Part shown: positions 6,058-63,964 of the stretch, in pieces
How the letters are laid out: each line of letters starts with the position of its first letter
Position numbering within the stretch: position 1 is the stretch's first letter
Source: Lachnospiraceae bacterium
GTDB lineage: Bacteria; Bacillota; Clostridia; Lachnospirales; Lachnospiraceae
DNA length: 64,000 nucleotides
Direction of reading: 5' to 3'
Assembly (NCBI GenBank): GCA_017625255.1
Contig: JAGALK010000008.1
Span: 1-64,000 of the forward strand
Notes under the pieces: generated by a model
Told to the model about the DNA's origin: nothing
Database searches by the model: none
Seen by the model: only the letters and a program-made list of their open reading frames with translations
Program-made: the position numbers and the translations under genes

Positions 6058-8385
6058 CTATTTCTCAATACTTGCCCGTCGATTCTTCTTAGCTTCATAT
6101 AACAGCTCGTCTGACTTTTGCATAAGTGCTGTAATATCAACCTGCGGTTCGCAATAAAATTCACAAATACCTACCGAGACTTCTACATAATAAGGAATTT
6201 CTTCATTGGCATTAAAGAGCTCCCCTTCTTCTTTCATCTGCTGTTTAAAGGCATTTGCAAATCCCGGCAGTCCGGAAATAACTACTGCGATAAATTCGTC
6301 TCCGCCGATTCTTGCCACAATAGCATCCTTAGGCAGCACATTTTTAAATCTGTCTGCTGCTGTTTTGATTGCAAAGTCTCCCGCATTATGACCAAATTTA
6401 TCATTAATCTCTTTTAATCGGTCTAAATCACCAAAAATCAGGTATGCTTTTCTGCCGTCATTCTTTTTGCACGCCATAAGCACCCTCTCCATAAATCCTC
6501 TTCGATTCAGAAGGTTGCTCAATTCATCATATTCGGAAATAAAACTCAAAATACTATTCTGCTCTCGAATAACCTTTAAGGATTTCTGTAAGCTTTTATA
6601 GGACTCCTGTTCTGCCCAGTTCAAATCCAAATATCGCAGCAGGGACCCTAACTGCATACCACAAATCTGCAGGAAGGAAATATCTTCCCTTTCCACCTCG
6701 CAGAGCAGTATGCCATACTGTTTTTCTCCCGAAAAGAGAATAAAGGATGTCAAAACCTCCGGCTCTTTGGAATGCACAAAAGCTGTAAAGCCATTTTCTG
6801 CAGTCACACACGGTCTTTCATTGCTGGCATAACAAACCATCTCTTTTTCGTTATAATAGGCTGTCAGATATATTTTCTTTGGAATCTCAAAGGATACTTC
6901 TTCATCATAAATTACCGGTTCATCAAACAAATATATGTAACAGCTTTTAACCTTCATCATTTTAAATCTTTCCATAATCGGACACATAACTTCCCGTAAA
7001 TCGTCTCTGGCTCCCTTACGATTTAAGTCCCTCGTAAAATTTGGTACGAACCACGCTTTTCGATTTAAAGCTATCTTGTCCTTTTCTAACTTCTGGTTAA
7101 TGGAATTAGAAATAAACTGCTCTGTAGCATTAATTATATATACAAGCTGTTCACTTTTACTGCTGTCCTTTGTATTGGAGGCTAATGTCTGCAACAGCTC
7201 TGTAAAATGTATGGAAAGTCCTCTGTCGGATATATGCGGATAAGTTACAAATTCCTGTAAAATCTCCAGCAGATATGCCATTTCAAACTCTTTTCCGCCG
7301 TCTTCTAATATATTTTTGCGTATATACTGAAAATAATCCTCTACTAACGCAGCAAAACGGAGTTTTTCATTCTTGTAGGGCAAGCCGGCTAATATAACAG
7401 ACGCCACTTCCAGTGAAGCCTTATGTATGTACTGCTCTAAATTTTCTGCTTCTGCCTGTGTATAATGAAAAGCACTGTTTCCACAGCATCCGCAGGAACG
7501 GCGTTTTACTAAGATTGTAGATAATTTCCCCGATGAAACCTTTTCACCTTTGCATAATGCAATGGCTTTTTGTACGGCGGTATAGCTAAATTTAAAACTT
7601 CTCTGGCTTACACTAGTCAACGGCGGATCCACCCTTTTTGCCAAATCCACATCGTCAAATCCTGTAATGGCTATGTCTTTTCCAATGACTAGATTTCTCT
7701 GTTTACAGACTCGATAACAGCCCTTTGCCATATTATCATTGGCACAGACAATTGCCTCTAAACCTATATTTTCATCTAAGAGCTTTGCTGCAAGATCCTC
7801 TACAAGCTCTGTATAATTTCCATATGCAATCATTTTGTCTTCGACAGTAATACCATTTTCCTCCATTACATCACGATATCCTGCCAATCTCTCAACTGCC
7901 TCACGATTTACCTTTGGTCCACAAAGAAAGGCAATTTTTTTGTATCCATGATCTTTTACTAAATGCTCCACACAGGAACGCATGGCATTATAATTATCCG
8001 GTAAAAGATACGGAATCTTCTTTTCTTCATCTATATCCTGTATGATAATGTAAGGAACTTTTGCAAATTTTTCTAAGAAGGCTTCTCTGTTATAGTTATG
8101 ATAATAATAGGAAATAGAACCTGTTGCCACAATTAAAGCATCCAGATTCATAAAATGCACATAATCATAAATTGTATCAAACTGATAATTGTAATTTCCC
8201 TCTAAGTTATAGGCCAATATATCTGCACAATACTGTGGAATCTGCGGTCCTGCCATAAAGACAACATTTACATCTTCTTCTCTCGCACAGGAGTAGAACC
8301 CACGCATTAATTCCATTGTATAATCGGATTCTACATCGCCTAGCATAATGCCTATAGTTGGACGATTGCTGTCATTTCTTTTCAT
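6058..8385 (-). CDS. Cytosolic LacI-type ligand-binding/GGDEF diguanylate cyclase
   Basis: A 775-residue protein predicted to make cyclic di-GMP in response to a small ligand. Residues about 8-290 match the periplasmic-binding-protein-like sensor fold of LacI regulators (IGIMLGDVESDYTMELMRGF; CANDNMAKG; ITGFDDVDLAKRVDPPLTSV). There is no DNA-binding helix-turn-helix, signal peptide or membrane segment, so it should act in the cytosol. A Cys-rich SCGCC motif (about 298-302) follows. A long middle region precedes the GGDEF domain (about 610-775; YLIFGDLDRLKEINDKFGHN; ARIGGDEF at about 691-698). The position of the inhibitory RxxD site reads LPKD, so product inhibition may be absent. A paralogue with the same layout is at 41662-43578. 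Confidence 0.9.
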   Translation of the reverse strand: MKRNDSNRPTIGIMLGDVESDYTMELMRGFYSCAREEDVNVVFMAGPQIPQYCADILAYNLEGNYNYQFDTIYDYVHFMNLDALIVATGSISYYYHNYNREAFLEKFAKVPYIIIQDIDEEKKIPYLLPDNYNAMRSCVEHLVKDHGYKKIAFLCGPKVNREAVERLAGYRDVMEENGITVEDKMIAYGNYTELVEDLAAKLLDENIGLEAIVCANDNMAKGCYRVCKQRNLVIGKDIAITGFDDVDLAKRVDPPLTSVSQRSFKFSYTAVQKAIALCKGEKVSSGKLSTILVKRRSCGCCGNSAFHYTQAEAENLEQYIHKASLEVASVILAGLPYKNEKLRFAALVEDYFQYIRKNILEDGGKEFEMAYLLEILQEFVTYPHISDRGLSIHFTELLQTLASNTKDSSKSEQLVYIINATEQFISNSINQKLEKDKIALNRKAWFVPNFTRDLNRKGARDDLREVMCPIMERFKMMKVKSCYIYLFDEPVIYDEEVSFEIPKKIYLTAYYNEKEMVCYASNERPCVTAENGFTAFVHSKEPEVLTSFILFSGEKQYGILLCEVEREDISFLQICGMQLGSLLRYLDLNWAEQESYKSLQKSLKVIREQNSILSFISEYDELSNLLNRRGFMERVLMACKKNDGRKAYLIFGDLDRLKEINDKFGHNAGDFAIKTAADRFKNVLPKDAIVARIGGDEFIAVVISGLPGFANAFKQQMKEEGELFNANEEIPYYVEVSVGICEFYCEPQVDITALMQKSDELLYEAKKNRRASIEK

Positions 8386-11774: not shown

Positions 11775-14423
11775 TTATTTGATAGAAGCTAACTGCGCTT
11801 TTACCTGTTCCATCATCTGCTCATATTTTGCCAATTTTTCCTTTTCCTCTGCAACCTTTGCTTCCGGTGCTTTGCTTAAGAACCGTTCATTGCTCAGCAT
11901 ACCTTTCGAACGGGCAAGTTCTTTTTCTAAACGAGCCTGCTCTTTTTCTAACCGTTCTTTTTCCTTTGCCATGTCCACTAAATCCTCTAATGGGATATAA
12001 ACAACAGCATCCGGAATAACAATGGATACCGCATCCTCGGAAATTCCTGCTTTATCTGCCTGAATAAGAACTTCATTTGCTCCCATTAATCCTGCATACA
12101 TATCTTTTTCTTCCTCGAAAATTCTGCGAACCTCTGCATTTTCGGATACAATATATACAGTTGCCTTTCTAGATGGTGGAACATCCATTTCAGAACGACG
12201 GTTTCTAACATTTTTAACAAGCTCTTTGCAGCGCTCTACCATAGCTTCTTCTGCTGCAAAATTGTATGCTTCTGTAAATACCGGCCAATCTGCAAGCATA
12301 ATGGTATCTGCCTGTGGATGAAGTGTACAGAAAATCTCCTCGGTGATAAATGGCATAAACGGGTGCAGCATCTTAAGCGCCTGTGTTAATACTTCTTTTA
12401 ATGTCCAAAGTGCTGTATTTGCAGATTTTGGATCCTGCTCTCTATTATAGGTACGACGCTTAGTCATTTCGATGTACCAGTCACAGAACTCATCCCAGAT
12501 AAAATCATATACCTTCTGTACAGCTATACCCATTTCATATTTATCCATATTTTCAGTCATTTCTTTTGCAAGATTATTGACTTTGGATAAAATCCATTTA
12601 TCTTCTGCAAGGAAATCCTTAGCATCCGGTGTGGTAAGCTTTGCATCTCCAATATTCATCATAATGAAACGAGAAGCATTCCATACTTTATTAGCAAAGT
12701 TACGGGAGGCTTCTACTCTCTCCCAATAGAAACGCATATCATTTCCCGGAGCATTACCGGTAATAAGTGTCAGACGAAGTGCATCTGCACCATATTTATC
12801 AATAACCTCTAATGGATCAATTCCATTTCCTAAGGATTTACTCATTTTGCGTCCCTGAGAATCACGAACTAAGCCATGGAACAATACTGTATGGAATGGT
12901 GCTTTGCCCATCTGCGCATATCCAGAGAAAATCATACGGATTACCCAGAAGAAAATAATATCATATCCGGTTACTAATACATCATTTGGATAGAAGTAAT
13001 CTAAATCCTCTGTTTTTTCCGGCCAGCCTAAGGTAGAGAATGGCCATAATGCTGAGGAGAACCATGTATCTAAGGTATCCTCATCCTGCTTCATGTGTAC
13101 GCAGCCGCATTTCGGACATTTTTCAGGAGCTGTTTTAGCAACCACCATTTCGCCGCATTCCTCACAATAGTAAGCCGGAATTCTGTGTCCCCACCATAAC
13201 TGTCTGGAGATACACCAGTCACGAATATTGTCTGTCCAGTTGAAGTAGGTCTTTTCCATTCGTTTTGGAAGAAGATTGATTTCTCCGTTTTTGACACCTT
13301 CTACAGCCGGTTTAATAAGCTCATCCATTTTTACGAACCACTGCTGTTTAATCATTGGTTCTACGGTTGTTTTACAACGGTCATGAGTTCCTACATTGTG
13401 AGAATGTGGTACAACCTTTACGAGAAGTCCCATTTCTTCTAATTCTTTCACTAATGCTTTTCTGCATTCATAGCGATCCATGCCTGCAAATTTACCAGCG
13501 CCTGCATTCATGATTGCATCATCACCGATAACTACAATTTCTTCTAAATTGTGGCGTTTTCCAACCTCAAAGTCGTTAGGGTCATGTGCCGGTGTAATTT
13601 TTACGCAACCGGTTCCAAATTCTTTATCTACATAGGAATCTGCAATAACCGGTATTTCACGATTGATAAATGGAAGTAATAATGTCTTTCCAATTAAATC
13701 CTGATATCTTTCATCCTCCGGATTTACAGCTACGGCTGTATCACCAAACATGGTTTCCGGTCTTGTCGTAGCAATTTCTACAAATCTGCCTTCTTCGCCA
13801 ACTACCGGGTAATTGATATGCCAGAAGAAACCATCCTGTTCTTCATGCTCTACCTCTGCATCGGAAATAGATGTCTGACAAACCGGACACCAGTTGACAA
13901 TACGAGAGCCTTTATAAATATAGCCTTCTTCGTACAATTTGATAAATACTTCTAATACGGCATCGGAGCAGCCTTCATCCATTGTAAAGCGTTCTCTTTC
14001 CCAGTCAGCGGATGAACCTAATTTTTTTAACTGCTTGATAATTCTTCCACCGTATTCTTTTCTCCACTCCCAGCATTTTTCTAAGAAGCCTTCTCTGCCT
14101 AAATCATCCTTATTGATACCCTGTGATTTTAAGTGTTCAATAACCTTTACTTCTGTAGCAATAGCTGCATGATCTGTTCCAGGCTGCCATAATGCATTAT
14201 ATCCCTGCATTCTCTTATAACGGATTAAAATATCCTGCATGGTATTGTCTAATGCATGTCCCATGTGTAACTGACCGGTAATATTTGGCGGCGGCATTAC
14301 AATGGTAAATGGCTTTTTACTCCTGTCTACTTCTGCATGAAAATAACCGTTTTCTTCCCATTTCTGGTAAAGACGGTCTTCAATCCCTTTTGGATCATAG
14401 GTCTTTGCTAATTCTTTGCTCAT
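11775..14423 (-). CDS. valS: Valyl-tRNA synthetase
   Basis: An 882-residue class I synthetase charging tRNA-Val. The ATP-binding HIGH-type motif is in PPPNITGQLHMGHALDNT (about residues 46-63) and the KMSKS signature is in GRKMSKSLGNGIDP (about 525). The editing domain contains TTRPETMFGDTAVAVNP. A zinc-type CxxC pair is present (CEECGEMVV; CPKCGCVHM). The C-terminal coiled-coil tail MAKEKERLEKEQARLEKEL is typical of ValRS. ATG at 14423 is chosen because GGAG lies 7 nt upstream. Another ATG six bases earlier is too close to that site. It is preceded by a T-box leader. Confidence 0.97.
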   Translation of the reverse strand: MSKELAKTYDPKGIEDRLYQKWEENGYFHAEVDRSKKPFTIVMPPPNITGQLHMGHALDNTMQDILIRYKRMQGYNALWQPGTDHAAIATEVKVIEHLKSQGINKDDLGREGFLEKCWEWRKEYGGRIIKQLKKLGSSADWERERFTMDEGCSDAVLEVFIKLYEEGYIYKGSRIVNWCPVCQTSISDAEVEHEEQDGFFWHINYPVVGEEGRFVEIATTRPETMFGDTAVAVNPEDERYQDLIGKTLLLPFINREIPVIADSYVDKEFGTGCVKITPAHDPNDFEVGKRHNLEEIVVIGDDAIMNAGAGKFAGMDRYECRKALVKELEEMGLLVKVVPHSHNVGTHDRCKTTVEPMIKQQWFVKMDELIKPAVEGVKNGEINLLPKRMEKTYFNWTDNIRDWCISRQLWWGHRIPAYYCEECGEMVVAKTAPEKCPKCGCVHMKQDEDTLDTWFSSALWPFSTLGWPEKTEDLDYFYPNDVLVTGYDIIFFWVIRMIFSGYAQMGKAPFHTVLFHGLVRDSQGRKMSKSLGNGIDPLEVIDKYGADALRLTLITGNAPGNDMRFYWERVEASRNFANKVWNASRFIMMNIGDAKLTTPDAKDFLAEDKWILSKVNNLAKEMTENMDKYEMGIAVQKVYDFIWDEFCDWYIEMTKRRTYNREQDPKSANTALWTLKEVLTQALKMLHPFMPFITEEIFCTLHPQADTIMLADWPVFTEAYNFAAEEAMVERCKELVKNVRNRRSEMDVPPSRKATVYIVSENAEVRRIFEEEKDMYAGLMGANEVLIQADKAGISEDAVSIVIPDAVVYIPLEDLVDMAKEKERLEKEQARLEKELARSKGMLSNERFLSKAPEAKVAEEKEKLAKYEQMMEQVKAQLASIK

Positions 14424-14494
14424 TTTCATTCTCCTTGCTGTAAATACATTTATTCAGATACTACTTGCAAGGGCACAGATATATCTATGAATTA

Positions 14495-14756
14495 GAAAAA
14501 CCCTTGAAAGAATACAATCTTTCAAGGGCGTATAATCTGCGCGGTACCACCTTGCTTATATAACATCTATGTTATACATCTCTTCATCTTTAACGGAATG
14601 ACCCGTGAAAACCTACTTGCAGCAATATCTGCCGTTTCAATCTTCCAGTTCAAAAGCTACCTTCCATATACCGTGTTCTAAGCTGCCTTACACCCGATGG
14701 ACAGCTCTCTCTTAAGAGCGTATATATGTACTCCTCTTTCTCATTACCTTTTTCAA
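14495..14756 (-). promoter_or_regulatory. T-box riboswitch upstream of valS
   Basis: The minus strand carries the T-box bulge sequence AAGGTGGTACCGCG (14540-14553). It is followed by a terminator stem CCCTTGAAAGA/TCTTTCAAGGG and a T run (14495-14528). The upstream Stem I region contains the AGAGAG and GGGTG-type conserved elements. A likely specifier codon is GTA (valine) at 14658-14660, in the context GAAG-GTA-GCTTTTGAAC. Uncharged tRNA-Val would pair with the specifier and with the bulge, favouring the antiterminator and valS expression. The T-box call is firm. The exact specifier and the 5' end are inferred. Confidence 0.93.
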
Positions 14757-14831: not shown

Positions 14832-14886
14832 ACACTTAGCGAGGTATTTTTGAGCCTAGTGTAAGAGTGGCGCCACCCTCACACTA
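14832..14886. repeat. Two overlapping inverted repeats
   Basis: A 15+15-bp dyad with no loop (14857-14871 with 14872-14886, 13 of 15 positions paired, centre GGCGCC) overlaps a second dyad (ACACTTAGC at 14832-14840 with GCCTAGTGT at 14854-14862). The two structures share 14857-14862 and so exclude each other in a transcript. They lie upstream of the valS promoter and next to the large palindrome at 14901-15190. On the minus strand the first could end the transcript of the EAL gene, but no convincing T run follows it. Confidence 0.6.
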
Positions 14887-14900
14887 TGGAGAATTTGGGC

Positions 14901-15190
14901 ATGAATGATATTTGGTCGTAGAAGTAGATGCATAAAATATAGCGCTGGCATTAGCGTGTGACCTTTGGCAGGGAGTTAGTGTTTCTTGATATTCTTTGCT
15001 TTGTCAGGGTAAGATTGCAATGGATTGCAATCTTAGGTGTAACCGGAATGGATTCCGGATTTACACCGACCCGTTCGTTTACAATATCTGATATAAGAAT
15101 ATCTAGAAACACTTACTCCCGAACAATCGACACACGAAAATGCTAGCGCTATATTTTATGCTACACTACCTACACCTCATTTTCATTCAT
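14901..15190 (+). repeat. Palindromic twin-TGGA-hairpin element, copy A
   Basis: A 290-bp imperfect palindrome filling most of the gene-free stretch 14795-15209. The outer arms begin ATGAATGA and end TCATTCAT. Long paired blocks include GCATAAAATATAGCGCT (14930-14946) with its complement near 15145-15161. The tip has a perfect 10-bp stem with loop TGGA (15011-15034), one A, then a 32-nt bulged stem with loop TGGA (15036-15067). Flanking the tip are CTTGATATTCTT on the 5' side and ATAAGAATATCTAG on the 3' side, both recurring in copy B at 63684-63964. No protein is plausible here. It begins 20 bp beyond the stop of the EAL gene. Confidence 0.88.
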
Positions 15191-15209
15191 CCCCACAAAT
15201 CGGAATCTC

Positions 15210-18107
15210 CTACTTATGCATTCGATCTGTCACATCTGAAATAAACACATAGAATAACGGATTATCCTTTTCCGATTCATCTAAATGTCCGCAATCGGTT
15301 ATCCAACGCACCTCACCATCCTTGCGGATAATGCGGTACTCTACATAATCCTCTTTTTCTTCAGAGCTTCGTATCTGTTCAGTGATTTCGTTTTCTACCC
15401 GTTCTAAATCATCCGGATGTACCATTCCTTTAAAGGAATTGCCTACTAACTCTCTAAACTCCCAAATATTCTCACATCCAAAGATATTCAGAACCTGTGT
15501 ATTGGCAAACAAAATCTTTTCATCACCCACGGCACTATAAATAAAGAATCCATCTTCTGTATGTGCTAAAAGCTCTGCCATATTTTGTCTGCGCTTATGT
15601 TCCTCTTCTTTAAACAACTCATCAATGGAACGCATTGTCATTACAGCAGTTTTGGGTTCTCCATCTACTCTTTCACTAACACAGAAGCTGACTAAACACC
15701 ATTCTATTTTGTCGCCAACCATTCTTTTATACTTATATTCCACTGTATTTTTTGCATCCAAATCTCTGCGCAATCCATCATTGGATAAAAACTTCCGAAT
15801 ATTTTCTTCATCATAAGGTAATATCTTACCATTTGAAAACCATCGGTTAATAATATCATGATAGCTTCCGCGTTCTAACAACTGATATTCATCCGGATAA
15901 ATCATACGGTAATAATCATCCTGCAAATGCACATAATAGATTTCCTGATAGGAATGCATAATACTCTGTAATGCGTTCTCATGAATATACCTATGGGTAA
16001 CATCACTTAACATTACTGTCAAATACCCATATTCAAACTGATATAAAGTAAGCTGAAGATACCTGTATGTAATCGGACTATATGTATAATAGGTTACTTC
16101 CTCACCTAAATATGCCGCCTGATAGGCTTTTTCTAACATACGATCTTTTTTGCCTTCAAATAATTTCAATGCCAGATTTCTCAGCCTTTGCATATTTCCA
16201 CAGGTGTTTTCCATTTGCCGATTGGCATATACCATTTCATAATCATTTGGTTTTTCATCTTCTCCAAGGGTAATTTTTACTACACCCATGGCGCATGGCA
16301 TATCACCATAATATTCTTCTAAATGCTTCTGCTGCTTTTCGGTTAATTCTTTTACAGTTTCTGTCTGTAAAGAGCTTCTTCTTTTTTCTTCTTTTAGGAA
16401 TGTCATATCTGTTAAGGAACTATAAAACAGCTTATGACCATCTCTTTCTCTTAAGAAAAATACCCGCATATAAACCCAGAGTATCTTCCCATCTGCCCGC
16501 ACATAATGCACATATCCTTGCGAACCATTCACTGAATTGTCATATGCCTGCTCAAATAAAGAAAGTAATCTATTCTGTTCTTCCTTTGGTACATGACTCC
16601 AGAATTTACGACTTTCACTTGCTTCATCATCGGAGGATATTCCTGCAAGCTGATAATACTGATCATTCACACGAGTAATTTCTATTCTATTCTCATATAC
16701 ATCATAAAAGGCTGTAGCACCTAAAAGATTATTCAGCATAGTATCGCTGAAAAGGTTGTTGTCTAAAAATTCCCGCACATGTAATGGTTCAAACTGTTTA
16801 CACCACAAGCCATCAAAATCTAAATTTTTCTCATCCGTAAGAACCTTTTCAAACTCATGAATCGGTAATGGTTTGTAATAATAATATCCCTGTGTGTAGC
16901 GACATCCCATACCAAGAAGAAAATCTTCCTGTTTCTTTGTTTCTACGCCTTCTACAATAATAGGAACTCCCATCTGTCTAGACATATTGACAACCGATTC
17001 TAAAATACCGATTCCTTTTTCTGTATCATTTTCACCGATATCTAAAAATCGCATATCGATTTTCAGCACATCTACAGCAACATTTTTTAGCATATTCAAA
17101 GAAGAATAGCCGCTGCCAAAGTCGTCCATCATTACCAAAAATCCTGCGTCCTGTAAATCCTTTACTGTCTTTTTAATCTTGTCATTGTTCTCTGCATATG
17201 CACTTTCTGTGATTTCCACCTTCAACATCTTCGGTTCTAATTCATATTTCTTAATCAGATGTAATAAAAATGCCGGAACATCCATAGAGAACACATCAAT
17301 TCTCGATACATTAATGGATATTGGTACAGGATGATAGCCTTTATCTAACCAACTGCGAATCCATTCGCATACCTTTTCCCACACATAACGGTCAAGGTCT
17401 GCAATAAATCCGTTTTTTTCCAATACCGGAATAAATACTCCCGGTGGAATCAATCCTTTGCTGCTGTGATTCCAACGCACCAAAGACTCTGCCCCTACAA
17501 TTTTGCCTGTGGATATATCGCACTGCGGCTGGGCAAAGAAAGTAAATTCTTTCTTTTCTAATGCTTCCTGAATTTCCGAAAGCAGCATAATTTCTTCTTC
17601 AATCTTGTCTGTCATACTGTCATCATAATAGCAGATTCGATTGGTATAATTTCCAATAATATGAGAAAGAGCAATTGTCGCTCTGTCATATAATGTCATT
17701 GCCGACAGTGAAGTATCGTCTATTCCATACACACCAAATGCCGGCAAAAATCCTACTGTGTTACTGATTTTCTTAACGCCGGCTGAAATATCTTTTCTTA
17801 ATTTTCTAAGAATCTCTTTTTGGTTTGGCATAAAAATTCCAAAATTATCACCGCCTAAATAGCCTGCTATGCCATTCCATTCCTCTGTGATATTCTTTAT
17901 GCAGTCTGCGACATATTCTAAAAGATAATCGCCTTCTTCCCTGCCATATAGCTTATTAAACAACCTAAAATGCTCGATATCTACTGCAACCAGACAATAT
18001 GTATTAGCTTCTGTATGCAAAAGACGCTTGTCTACCTCTTCAAAAAAAGTCTTACTGTGATATAAACCAGTCAACGAATGTATACATTCACATGTCTGAC
18101 TACTCAT
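15210..18107 (-). CDS. Degenerate GGDEF / EAL / PAS protein, putative c-di-GMP phosphodiesterase
   Basis: A 965-residue cytosolic protein. Residues about 10-165 form a GGDEF domain whose signature reads GGDNF, so cyclase activity is doubtful. Residues about 175-425 form an EAL domain with AESLVRW in place of EALVRW (the glutamate is kept), DDFGSGYSSL, LKIDMRFL and VEGVET, which suggests an active phosphodiesterase. PAS-like modules follow at about 450-585 (YVRADGKILWVYMRV) and 835-965 (RKDGEVRWITDCGH). It would oppose the two GGDEF proteins in this window. Upstream on the same strand are a 45-residue membrane protein and an HPt protein, with gaps of 31 and 14 nt, forming one operon. Confidence 0.9.
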   Translation of the reverse strand: MSSQTCECIHSLTGLYHSKTFFEEVDKRLLHTEANTYCLVAVDIEHFRLFNKLYGREEGDYLLEYVADCIKNITEEWNGIAGYLGGDNFGIFMPNQKEILRKLRKDISAGVKKISNTVGFLPAFGVYGIDDTSLSAMTLYDRATIALSHIIGNYTNRICYYDDSMTDKIEEEIMLLSEIQEALEKKEFTFFAQPQCDISTGKIVGAESLVRWNHSSKGLIPPGVFIPVLEKNGFIADLDRYVWEKVCEWIRSWLDKGYHPVPISINVSRIDVFSMDVPAFLLHLIKKYELEPKMLKVEITESAYAENNDKIKKTVKDLQDAGFLVMMDDFGSGYSSLNMLKNVAVDVLKIDMRFLDIGENDTEKGIGILESVVNMSRQMGVPIIVEGVETKKQEDFLLGMGCRYTQGYYYYKPLPIHEFEKVLTDEKNLDFDGLWCKQFEPLHVREFLDNNLFSDTMLNNLLGATAFYDVYENRIEITRVNDQYYQLAGISSDDEASESRKFWSHVPKEEQNRLLSLFEQAYDNSVNGSQGYVHYVRADGKILWVYMRVFFLRERDGHKLFYSSLTDMTFLKEEKRRSSLQTETVKELTEKQQKHLEEYYGDMPCAMGVVKITLGEDEKPNDYEMVYANRQMENTCGNMQRLRNLALKLFEGKKDRMLEKAYQAAYLGEEVTYYTYSPITYRYLQLTLYQFEYGYLTVMLSDVTHRYIHENALQSIMHSYQEIYYVHLQDDYYRMIYPDEYQLLERGSYHDIINRWFSNGKILPYDEENIRKFLSNDGLRRDLDAKNTVEYKYKRMVGDKIEWCLVSFCVSERVDGEPKTAVMTMRSIDELFKEEEHKRRQNMAELLAHTEDGFFIYSAVGDEKILFANTQVLNIFGCENIWEFRELVGNSFKGMVHPDDLERVENEITEQIRSSEEKEDYVEYRIIRKDGEVRWITDCGHLDESEKDNPLFYVFISDVTDRMHK

Positions 18108-62637: not shown

Positions 62638-63603
62638 CTAAAACTCATCAAAATCATAACGATTAGATACCTGATTTTGTTTCGCTTTAAATTGCAGCAA
62701 TTCTGCTGTTCCTTCTGCCCATTCAACGCAGGCAGTCAATTCTATGGCTTCTGTCAGCCTTGCTCCCTCTAATATATTTTCACGGCACAAAAACTGCAAG
62801 GTTTCTAACTGTCTTTTTTCAACTAAGGGCTTCATAAGCGCTAATATATGCTCTTTTAAATATGCACTGTACATTTGTCTGGCATTTTCCTTTAAAGCAT
62901 AGGGATATTGCAGGCGGTTTAAAGCCATTTTTGCTAAAGTATTTTCCGACTCTTCCACACAAGCCTGCTCAAATATTCTGTCATATCCTACAAAATCTAT
63001 CCTTCCATCCTGTATACACTGTCTTGCCCGAAACCCTTCCCCCTCAATATTTCTGCCAAACAGATGCGCCGGCGCGATTTCATCATAGGATTCATAGTAT
63101 TCCGGATACAATAAAACTGCCTCAATACCCGATTCTCCTTCAAAAGTCACTTCAATATCCGAAGAAAAACGGGCTAGAATCTGCTTAATACCACTTTTCT
63201 CATTTGGTGAACATCGGAAAGTAAGCTGATGTAAGGATATCGTATTCATAAAGGCATCACTGCCTATTTCTTTAGTTTTTGCACCAAGCTCTATTTTCTT
63301 TAGTTTTTTGCAGTTATAAAAGGCATAGTTGCCTATTTTTTCTATGCTGTCCGGAAGATAGATTTCCTCAATGGAATTTCCGCAAAGTTCCTGCAAGAAC
63401 CGTTCCTCTCCGATGATTTCTTCTAAGCTCTCTTCATATTTTAGCTTTCTTGTCTCACAAAAACAATAGGGAGCAACTTCCACAATAGGATATCCTCCCA
63501 CAGTTTCTGGAATACAAATCTTAGCAGAGGTTCCATAAATACGGAGTAATCTCGCTTTTTTGTCACTTATTTTCTGATATATAATCCGATAGGATGTCTT
63601 CAT
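62638..63603 (-). CDS. BspA-like leucine-rich-repeat protein with helical C-terminus
   Basis: A 321-residue soluble protein. Residues about 25-145 hold LRR_5-type repeats (SIEEIYLPDSIEKIGNYAFY; KKIELGAKTKEIGSDAFM). The rest is mainly helical (MALNRLQYPYALKENARQMY) and has no recognised domain. No signal peptide is present, so it should be cytosolic, unlike secreted BspA adhesins. It is the first gene of the LRR / VWA / MoxR operon (gap 32 nt to the next start) and may be its recognition component. AAGGAG lies 8 nt before the ATG. Confidence 0.85.
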   Translation of the reverse strand: MKTSYRIIYQKISDKKARLLRIYGTSAKICIPETVGGYPIVEVAPYCFCETRKLKYEESLEEIIGEERFLQELCGNSIEEIYLPDSIEKIGNYAFYNCKKLKKIELGAKTKEIGSDAFMNTISLHQLTFRCSPNEKSGIKQILARFSSDIEVTFEGESGIEAVLLYPEYYESYDEIAPAHLFGRNIEGEGFRARQCIQDGRIDFVGYDRIFEQACVEESENTLAKMALNRLQYPYALKENARQMYSAYLKEHILALMKPLVEKRQLETLQFLCRENILEGARLTEAIELTACVEWAEGTAELLQFKAKQNQVSNRYDFDEF

Positions 63604-63683
63604 GTTTTAACTCCTTATATTTATTCCGGTTTAAGGGATAAATGGTATTCAGGAAATATTTTGGGAAACGGACGACATAAGGA

Positions 63684-63964
63684 ATGTATCATTGTTTTGG
63701 GTTGTGGGGCATATAGGGTAGGTATAGGTGTGGGCAGATTCCGTTGTCCGGATATAAGATTTGCTAAATATTCTTATGATGGATATTGGTAACGGACGCG
63801 CCGGCTCAAACCGCCATCCATGGCGATTTCGCCTAAAATTGCCATCCATGGCAATTTTCCGCTAGTACTCTTAAGAATATCAAGCAAATCTAACACCCTA
63901 CCAAAGTCATCTGCCCACACCTATACCTACCCTATATGCAATCTACATTGTGGGAATGATACAT
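63684..63964 (-). repeat. Palindromic twin-TGGA-hairpin element, copy B
   Basis: A 281-bp imperfect palindrome filling most of the gene-free end of the window (63604-64000). The outer arms are ATGTATCATT (63684-63693) and its complement (63955-63964). A perfect 31-bp inverted repeat is at 63709-63739 with 63909-63939, and another 20-nt pair is at 63757-63776 with 63872-63891 (2 mismatches). Read on the minus strand, the tip has a perfect 10-bp stem with TGGA loop (63835-63858), one A, then a bulged 31-nt stem with TGGA loop (63803-63833), matching copy A at 14901-15190 in order, size and loops. It lies 80 bp upstream of the LRR gene. Confidence 0.88.

Follow-up and report, generated by a model that had tools for sequence, protein, structure and literature searches.

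A foldback repeat with a TwoAYGGAY core, present in many copies and often placed at stop codons in a Lachnospiraceae genome

Analysis of a 64,000-nucleotide stretch of Lachnospiraceae DNA (the window) revealed two palindromic elements, copy A on the plus strand and copy B on the minus strand. Copy A is a single half-element whose foldback, defined by local self-complementarity, covers positions 14891 to 15201 (+). Sequence and folding placed two adjacent hairpins in it, hairpin 1 at 15011 to 15034 and hairpin 2 at 15036 to 15067 (both +), each with GGA in the loop. On the inner side of this half lies a GGCGCC hairpin (14858 to 14885) of the kind that is also found in the spacers of paired elements, and copy A accordingly comprises one half plus the central hairpin. 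The outer terminus (..ATCGGAAT, 15199 to 15206, +) is located 3 nt from the stop codon (15210 to 15212) of a minus-strand gene (15210 to 18107) encoding a 965-aa GGDEF/EAL/PAS protein. In the same part of the window, a T-box leader (14521 to 14753, −) precedes the valyl-tRNA synthetase gene (11775 to 14429, −).

Copy B is the left half of a paired element that is truncated by the contig end. Its self-complementary part covers 63709 to 63939 (−), with GGA-loop hairpins read from the sequence at 63835 to 63858 (hairpin 1) and 63803 to 63833 (hairpin 2). An outer arm extension and terminus follow at 63623 to 63708 (−), with ATTCCGG at 63623. The start codon of an open reading frame (62638 to 63603, −) lies 19 nt downstream of this terminus, which abuts no stop codon. 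An earlier note on this DNA had described the two copies as sharing one architecture, composed of a 14-nt interval, a 10-bp hairpin with a TGGA tip, a single A, a second hairpin of 31 to 32 nt, and later conserved blocks, and all of these parts could be read in the sequence as described, the second hairpin measuring 32 nt in A and 31 nt in B. The note placed copy A at 14901 to 15190; the self-complementarity of copy B lies slightly inside the 63684 to 63964 proposed for it.

Searching the Rfam database with cmscan revealed that both copies match family RF01731 (TwoAYGGAY) over model positions 1 to 168. Copy A (core 14964 to 15127, +) scored 89.6 bits with an E value of 2.3e-16 and copy B (core 63743 to 63905, −) 109.5 bits with an E value of 6.1e-21, against a gathering threshold of 43 bits. 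These E values exclude chance as the origin of the matches. Both copies display the two adjacent hairpins with AYGGAY-type loops that characterise the family. The earlier note did not recognise the family and had named a match to a known Rfam family as a result that would count against it; TwoAYGGAY has in fact been known since Weinberg et al. 2010, who listed it without a function (PMC2864571). Binding to CsrA was suggested for it in 2014, in a paper about annotating RNA motifs (PMC4333381). Rfam classifies TwoAYGGAY as cis-regulatory and assigns it to clan CL00106, to which the CsrA-binding RNA CsrB also belongs. In the literature, no description was found of TwoAYGGAY as a repeat or of a larger unit containing it. 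Whereas the Rfam model spans 168 nt, the unit described here is a foldback of about 290 bp that is often paired, occurs in tens of copies and is placed at stop codons. The anatomy of the repeat, with TwoAYGGAY as the conserved core of a high-copy foldback, is well supported.

The genome from which the window was taken (G000; 3.1 Mb, 149 contigs) contained at least 50 matches to the core in an RF01731 scan and, for each of two subtypes, at least about 40 listed matches to its outer ends. Default scans of the whole window and the whole genome missed copy A, so that the numbers they give are minimum figures. The element occupies 73 of the 298 contig ends, which partly explains the fragmentation of the assembly. 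Some copies are nearly identical in sequence, and the G000 outer ends have a sharp boundary at ..CCGGAAT. Complete compound elements measure approximately 0.8 to 1.1 kb and consist, in order, of an outer end, a half with a minus-strand core, a central spacer, a half with a plus-strand core and a second outer end. The central spacer contains the GGCGCC hairpin in G000 and in the genome G002. All close pairs examined in the genus of the window have the order minus then plus and thus point outward. Elsewhere in Lachnospiraceae, most loci are single halves, with a few inverted or direct pairs. The idea of a structured family with conserved loop bases, paired stem changes and many further copies was borne out, and the analysis adds that copies A and B belong to a high-copy repeat that usually forms outward-pointing pairs here, with its outer end at stop codons.

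Comparison of 86 copies revealed a median palindrome length of 287 bp. The complementarity between the two arms of one copy averaged 105 units, in contrast to 23 units between arms of different copies, which equals the level of shuffled arms. The arms therefore have no common sequence and are still paired, which agrees with the paired stem changes seen earlier between copies A and B. Mismatches in the arms did not show an excess of G.T (183) over A.C (288), so there is no sign of RNA-specific selection in the arms. In the hairpins, the family set gave 29 G.T against 10 A.C mismatches (p = 7e-4) and all sets together a weak 34 against 20 (p = 0.03), with 5 against 10 in the other-family set alone; these counts are not independent because the copies are related. 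This comparison of G.T and A.C mismatches favours RNA only weakly, and in the hairpins only.

Folding showed GGA in 187 of 209 main loops. In 20 copies taken from further families of the phylum, all 40 main loops contained it. Loop length is mostly 3 to 6 nt, and the closing pairs vary while GGA stays. A spacing of 27 to 31 nt between one GGA and the other was measured in 86 of 88 copies. In 29 of 106 copies the exact string ACANGGATGT is present, compared with 0.04 expected. ACGA replaces GGA in the loops of L061 and L062 (genome G022) and L207 (genome G123), two genomes that have CsrA; a further copy of G022, L209, retains GGA.

The outer end of the unit shows a preference for the stop codon of a gene on the opposite strand. 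Among 34 outer ends in G000 that face a gene reading toward them, 24 have the stop codon within 0 to 5 nt (12 of them at 0), and 6 genes of this set extend 12 to 24 nt into the element. In a wider sample, 22 of 51 outer boundaries lay near a stop codon, compared with 2 of 37 inner boundaries (p = 7e-5), which indicates the same polarity in relatives. Orthologues that lack the element have the identical stop codon, with an intrinsic terminator or the next gene behind it, and some single-copy loci have a terminator-like hairpin beyond the element. G000 and G002 both have the element at recG, purD, fbpA and leuA/hflX (names read from the proteins, not all of them library-checked), but its sequence there differs between the two species, a pattern suggestive of inheritance combined with homogenisation. 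At single copies, the neighbouring gene lies antisense to the AYGGAY strand; for this reason, the idea that the element forms a sense-strand part of that gene's 3' UTR was rejected.

The core was carried by 43 of 298 Lachnospiraceae genomes that were at least 90% complete, with patchy presence within the genus of the window. A phylum-wide draw revealed it in 40 of 398 genomes, several of which had multiple copies at lower scores. In a scan of named genomes, most matches outside Clostridia looked like chance, and two reached only 43 to 45 bits in Rfam. Among the 298 family genomes, CsrA was encoded in 41 of the 43 carriers versus 108 of 255 non-carriers (p = 1e-11, kinship ignored) and flagellin in 42 of 43 versus 111 of 255 (kinship likewise ignored); as flagellin associates equally with carriage and can hardly be told apart from CsrA in this set, the link to CsrA is not separated from that to motility. 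The two carriers in which CsrA was not detected are single-copy carriers. G000 itself encodes one divergent CsrA.

The reading that we tentatively prefer, at somewhat short of even confidence, is that TwoAYGGAY is the core of an extragenic repeat, akin to the REP/BIME repeats of enterobacteria, whose hairpins are transcribed and bound by CsrA dimers. RNA of the AYGGAY strand would display two GGA loops at a distance of about 29 nt, so that a CsrA dimer could bridge them. Dozens of dispersed copies might titrate CsrA or recruit it locally in motile species. As a giant hairpin within the 3' UTR of its neighbouring gene, the element may in addition alter the stability or translation of that mRNA, as REPs near stop codons do, and spread and homogenisation could be due to some enzyme that acts on the palindrome or to gene conversion there. 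Transcription of the AYGGAY strand, binding of CsrA and an effect on gene output are all predicted here from sequence comparison.

This proposal draws on the Rfam match with its CsrB clan, the copy number in G000 combined with the patchy presence in the genus, and the pairing of each arm with its own partner. GGA in the loops at bridgeable spacing and the recurrent ACANGGATGT string fit the CsrA SELEX consensus RUACARGGAUGU and the ability of one dimer to bridge sites 10 to 63 nt apart (PMC7652899). The stop-codon abutment in G000, its polarity in relatives and the same stop codons in element-free orthologues point in the same direction, as does the presence of CsrA in nearly all carriers, a correlation confounded with flagellin. 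E. coli REPs near stop codons, which affect translation, provide a precedent (PMC12306157). The main weakness is that the gene abutting a single copy transcribes the strand opposite AYGGAY, so that the AYGGAY strand would have to arise by read-through from the opposite flank or from an unseen promoter. The inseparability of CsrA from flagellin in the sample, the ACGA loops in the CsrA-bearing G022 and G123, the two single-copy carriers in which no CsrA was detected, and a G.U bias that is weak in the hairpins and absent in the arms also speak against it.

Comparison with known systems revealed partial likeness in each case. Like REP, BIME and REPIN sequences, the element is a high-copy extragenic palindrome with compensatory changes, found as single units or inverted pairs and often near stop codons (PMC2817692, PMC12306157). 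It differs from the 20- to 40-bp REP unit (PMC3733652), which has a GTAG or CGTC tag, in being about ten times longer and in having arms without conserved sequence, and most carriers lack the Y1 transposase (RAYT) that accompanies REPs. With CsrB and RsmZ it has in common hairpin-loop GGA at bridging distance and the Rfam clan. In those systems many sites lie in one sRNA gene, whereas here each of many dispersed copies has two sites, and no promoter or terminator of its own was identified for the element.

An unlikely but serious alternative holds that the repeat is non-autonomous mobile DNA, REPIN- or attC-like, whose folded single strand is recognised by a transposase or recombinase preferring stop-codon sites; the GGA loops would then be a recognition signal and CsrA irrelevant. 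Sharp ends, near-identical copies in high number and precise placement at stop codons would be expected of such an element, and the arms consist of DNA-like perfect pairs lacking G.U bias. Integron attC sites, as is generally known, likewise keep structure without sequence and are located at the 3' ends of genes. The neighbours of the element are instead dispersed housekeeping genes in normal context (e.g., purD, aspartokinase, recG, leuA) and do not form cassettes. The search for a mobiliser was negative. G000 gave no Y1_Tnp match, and neither did 8 further carriers out of 12 (some assemblies being incomplete), and a RAYT/IS200-type mobiliser was rejected because the domain is missing from most carriers. 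An autonomous element between widely spaced halves was also rejected, since the three longest-spaced loci among those examined hold ordinary genes or no clear transposase. Mobility by itself leaves unexplained the CsrA-type loops and the restriction to motile lineages, and the sites common to G000 and G002 speak for inheritance.

In many genomes of the family, a gene for a 192-aa tyrosine recombinase adjoins a divergent CsrA-like gene near flagellin, often in divergent arrangement (L071, positions 6828 to 7824, contig C16 of G000; also L072 to L081). In G000 this CsrA-like gene is the only CsrA found. As a mobilising pair the two genes were rejected because they are present in genomes without detected elements, and the recombinase is missing from G018 and G036, two carriers with complete genomes; it does not track the element and belongs to a flagellin-locus module. 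The pair is possibly a module for flagellin phase or expression.

It appears improbable that the repeat is only a REP-like structural element of DNA or mRNA, in which a giant hairpin downstream of the stop codon shields the end of the mRNA or makes translation of the adjoining gene slower, and the loops matter for folding alone. Placement right after stop codons, before intrinsic terminators at some loci, would suit such a role, as would the REP precedent (PMC12306157); GGA is not needed for folding, however, and is kept across families of the phylum despite differing loop lengths and closing pairs. A neutral relic, in which palindromes correct themselves by template switching and are purged except at gene ends, agrees with arms that lack common sequence and RNA-type bias but is very improbable, because it explains neither the GGA loops at fixed spacing across families nor stop codons exactly 0 to 1 nt away.

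Returning to the proposal of CsrA-binding hairpins, a bolder form, which we consider speculative and rather doubtful, is a distributed CsrB: the repeat would have colonised stop codons across the phylum and supplied gene ends with dozens of twin CsrA-dimer sites, and transcription of numerous genes would set the level of free CsrA. Since its description in 2010, TwoAYGGAY has had no function assigned to it. Should it prove to be the tip of a REP-like repeat that is tied to stop codons and has CsrA-type loops, it would join extragenic palindromes and CsrA regulation and suggest a CsrA sink, open to testing, in motile Gram-positive gut bacteria, in which FliW is, to our knowledge, the only CsrA antagonist usually discussed. 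It would also represent a repeat that keeps its loops and shape while the arm sequence drifts freely.

Further observations concern the ends of elements in G000. At L016, L036, L047, L098 and L102, genes have apparently lost their own stop codon and end on one inside the element; some of the stop-losing genes gained a short foreign tail, e.g., NSGL. At some element ends, a second repeat (TATTGGTGAAGTT..CCGCAGTG..GGTCGCGGCATTCGCCGCATCAATCC) substitutes for the usual terminus. It was located in L007 at positions 517 to 660 (contig C30) and also in contigs C143, C46, C123 and C99, and in C30 it is followed by a terminator-like hairpin.
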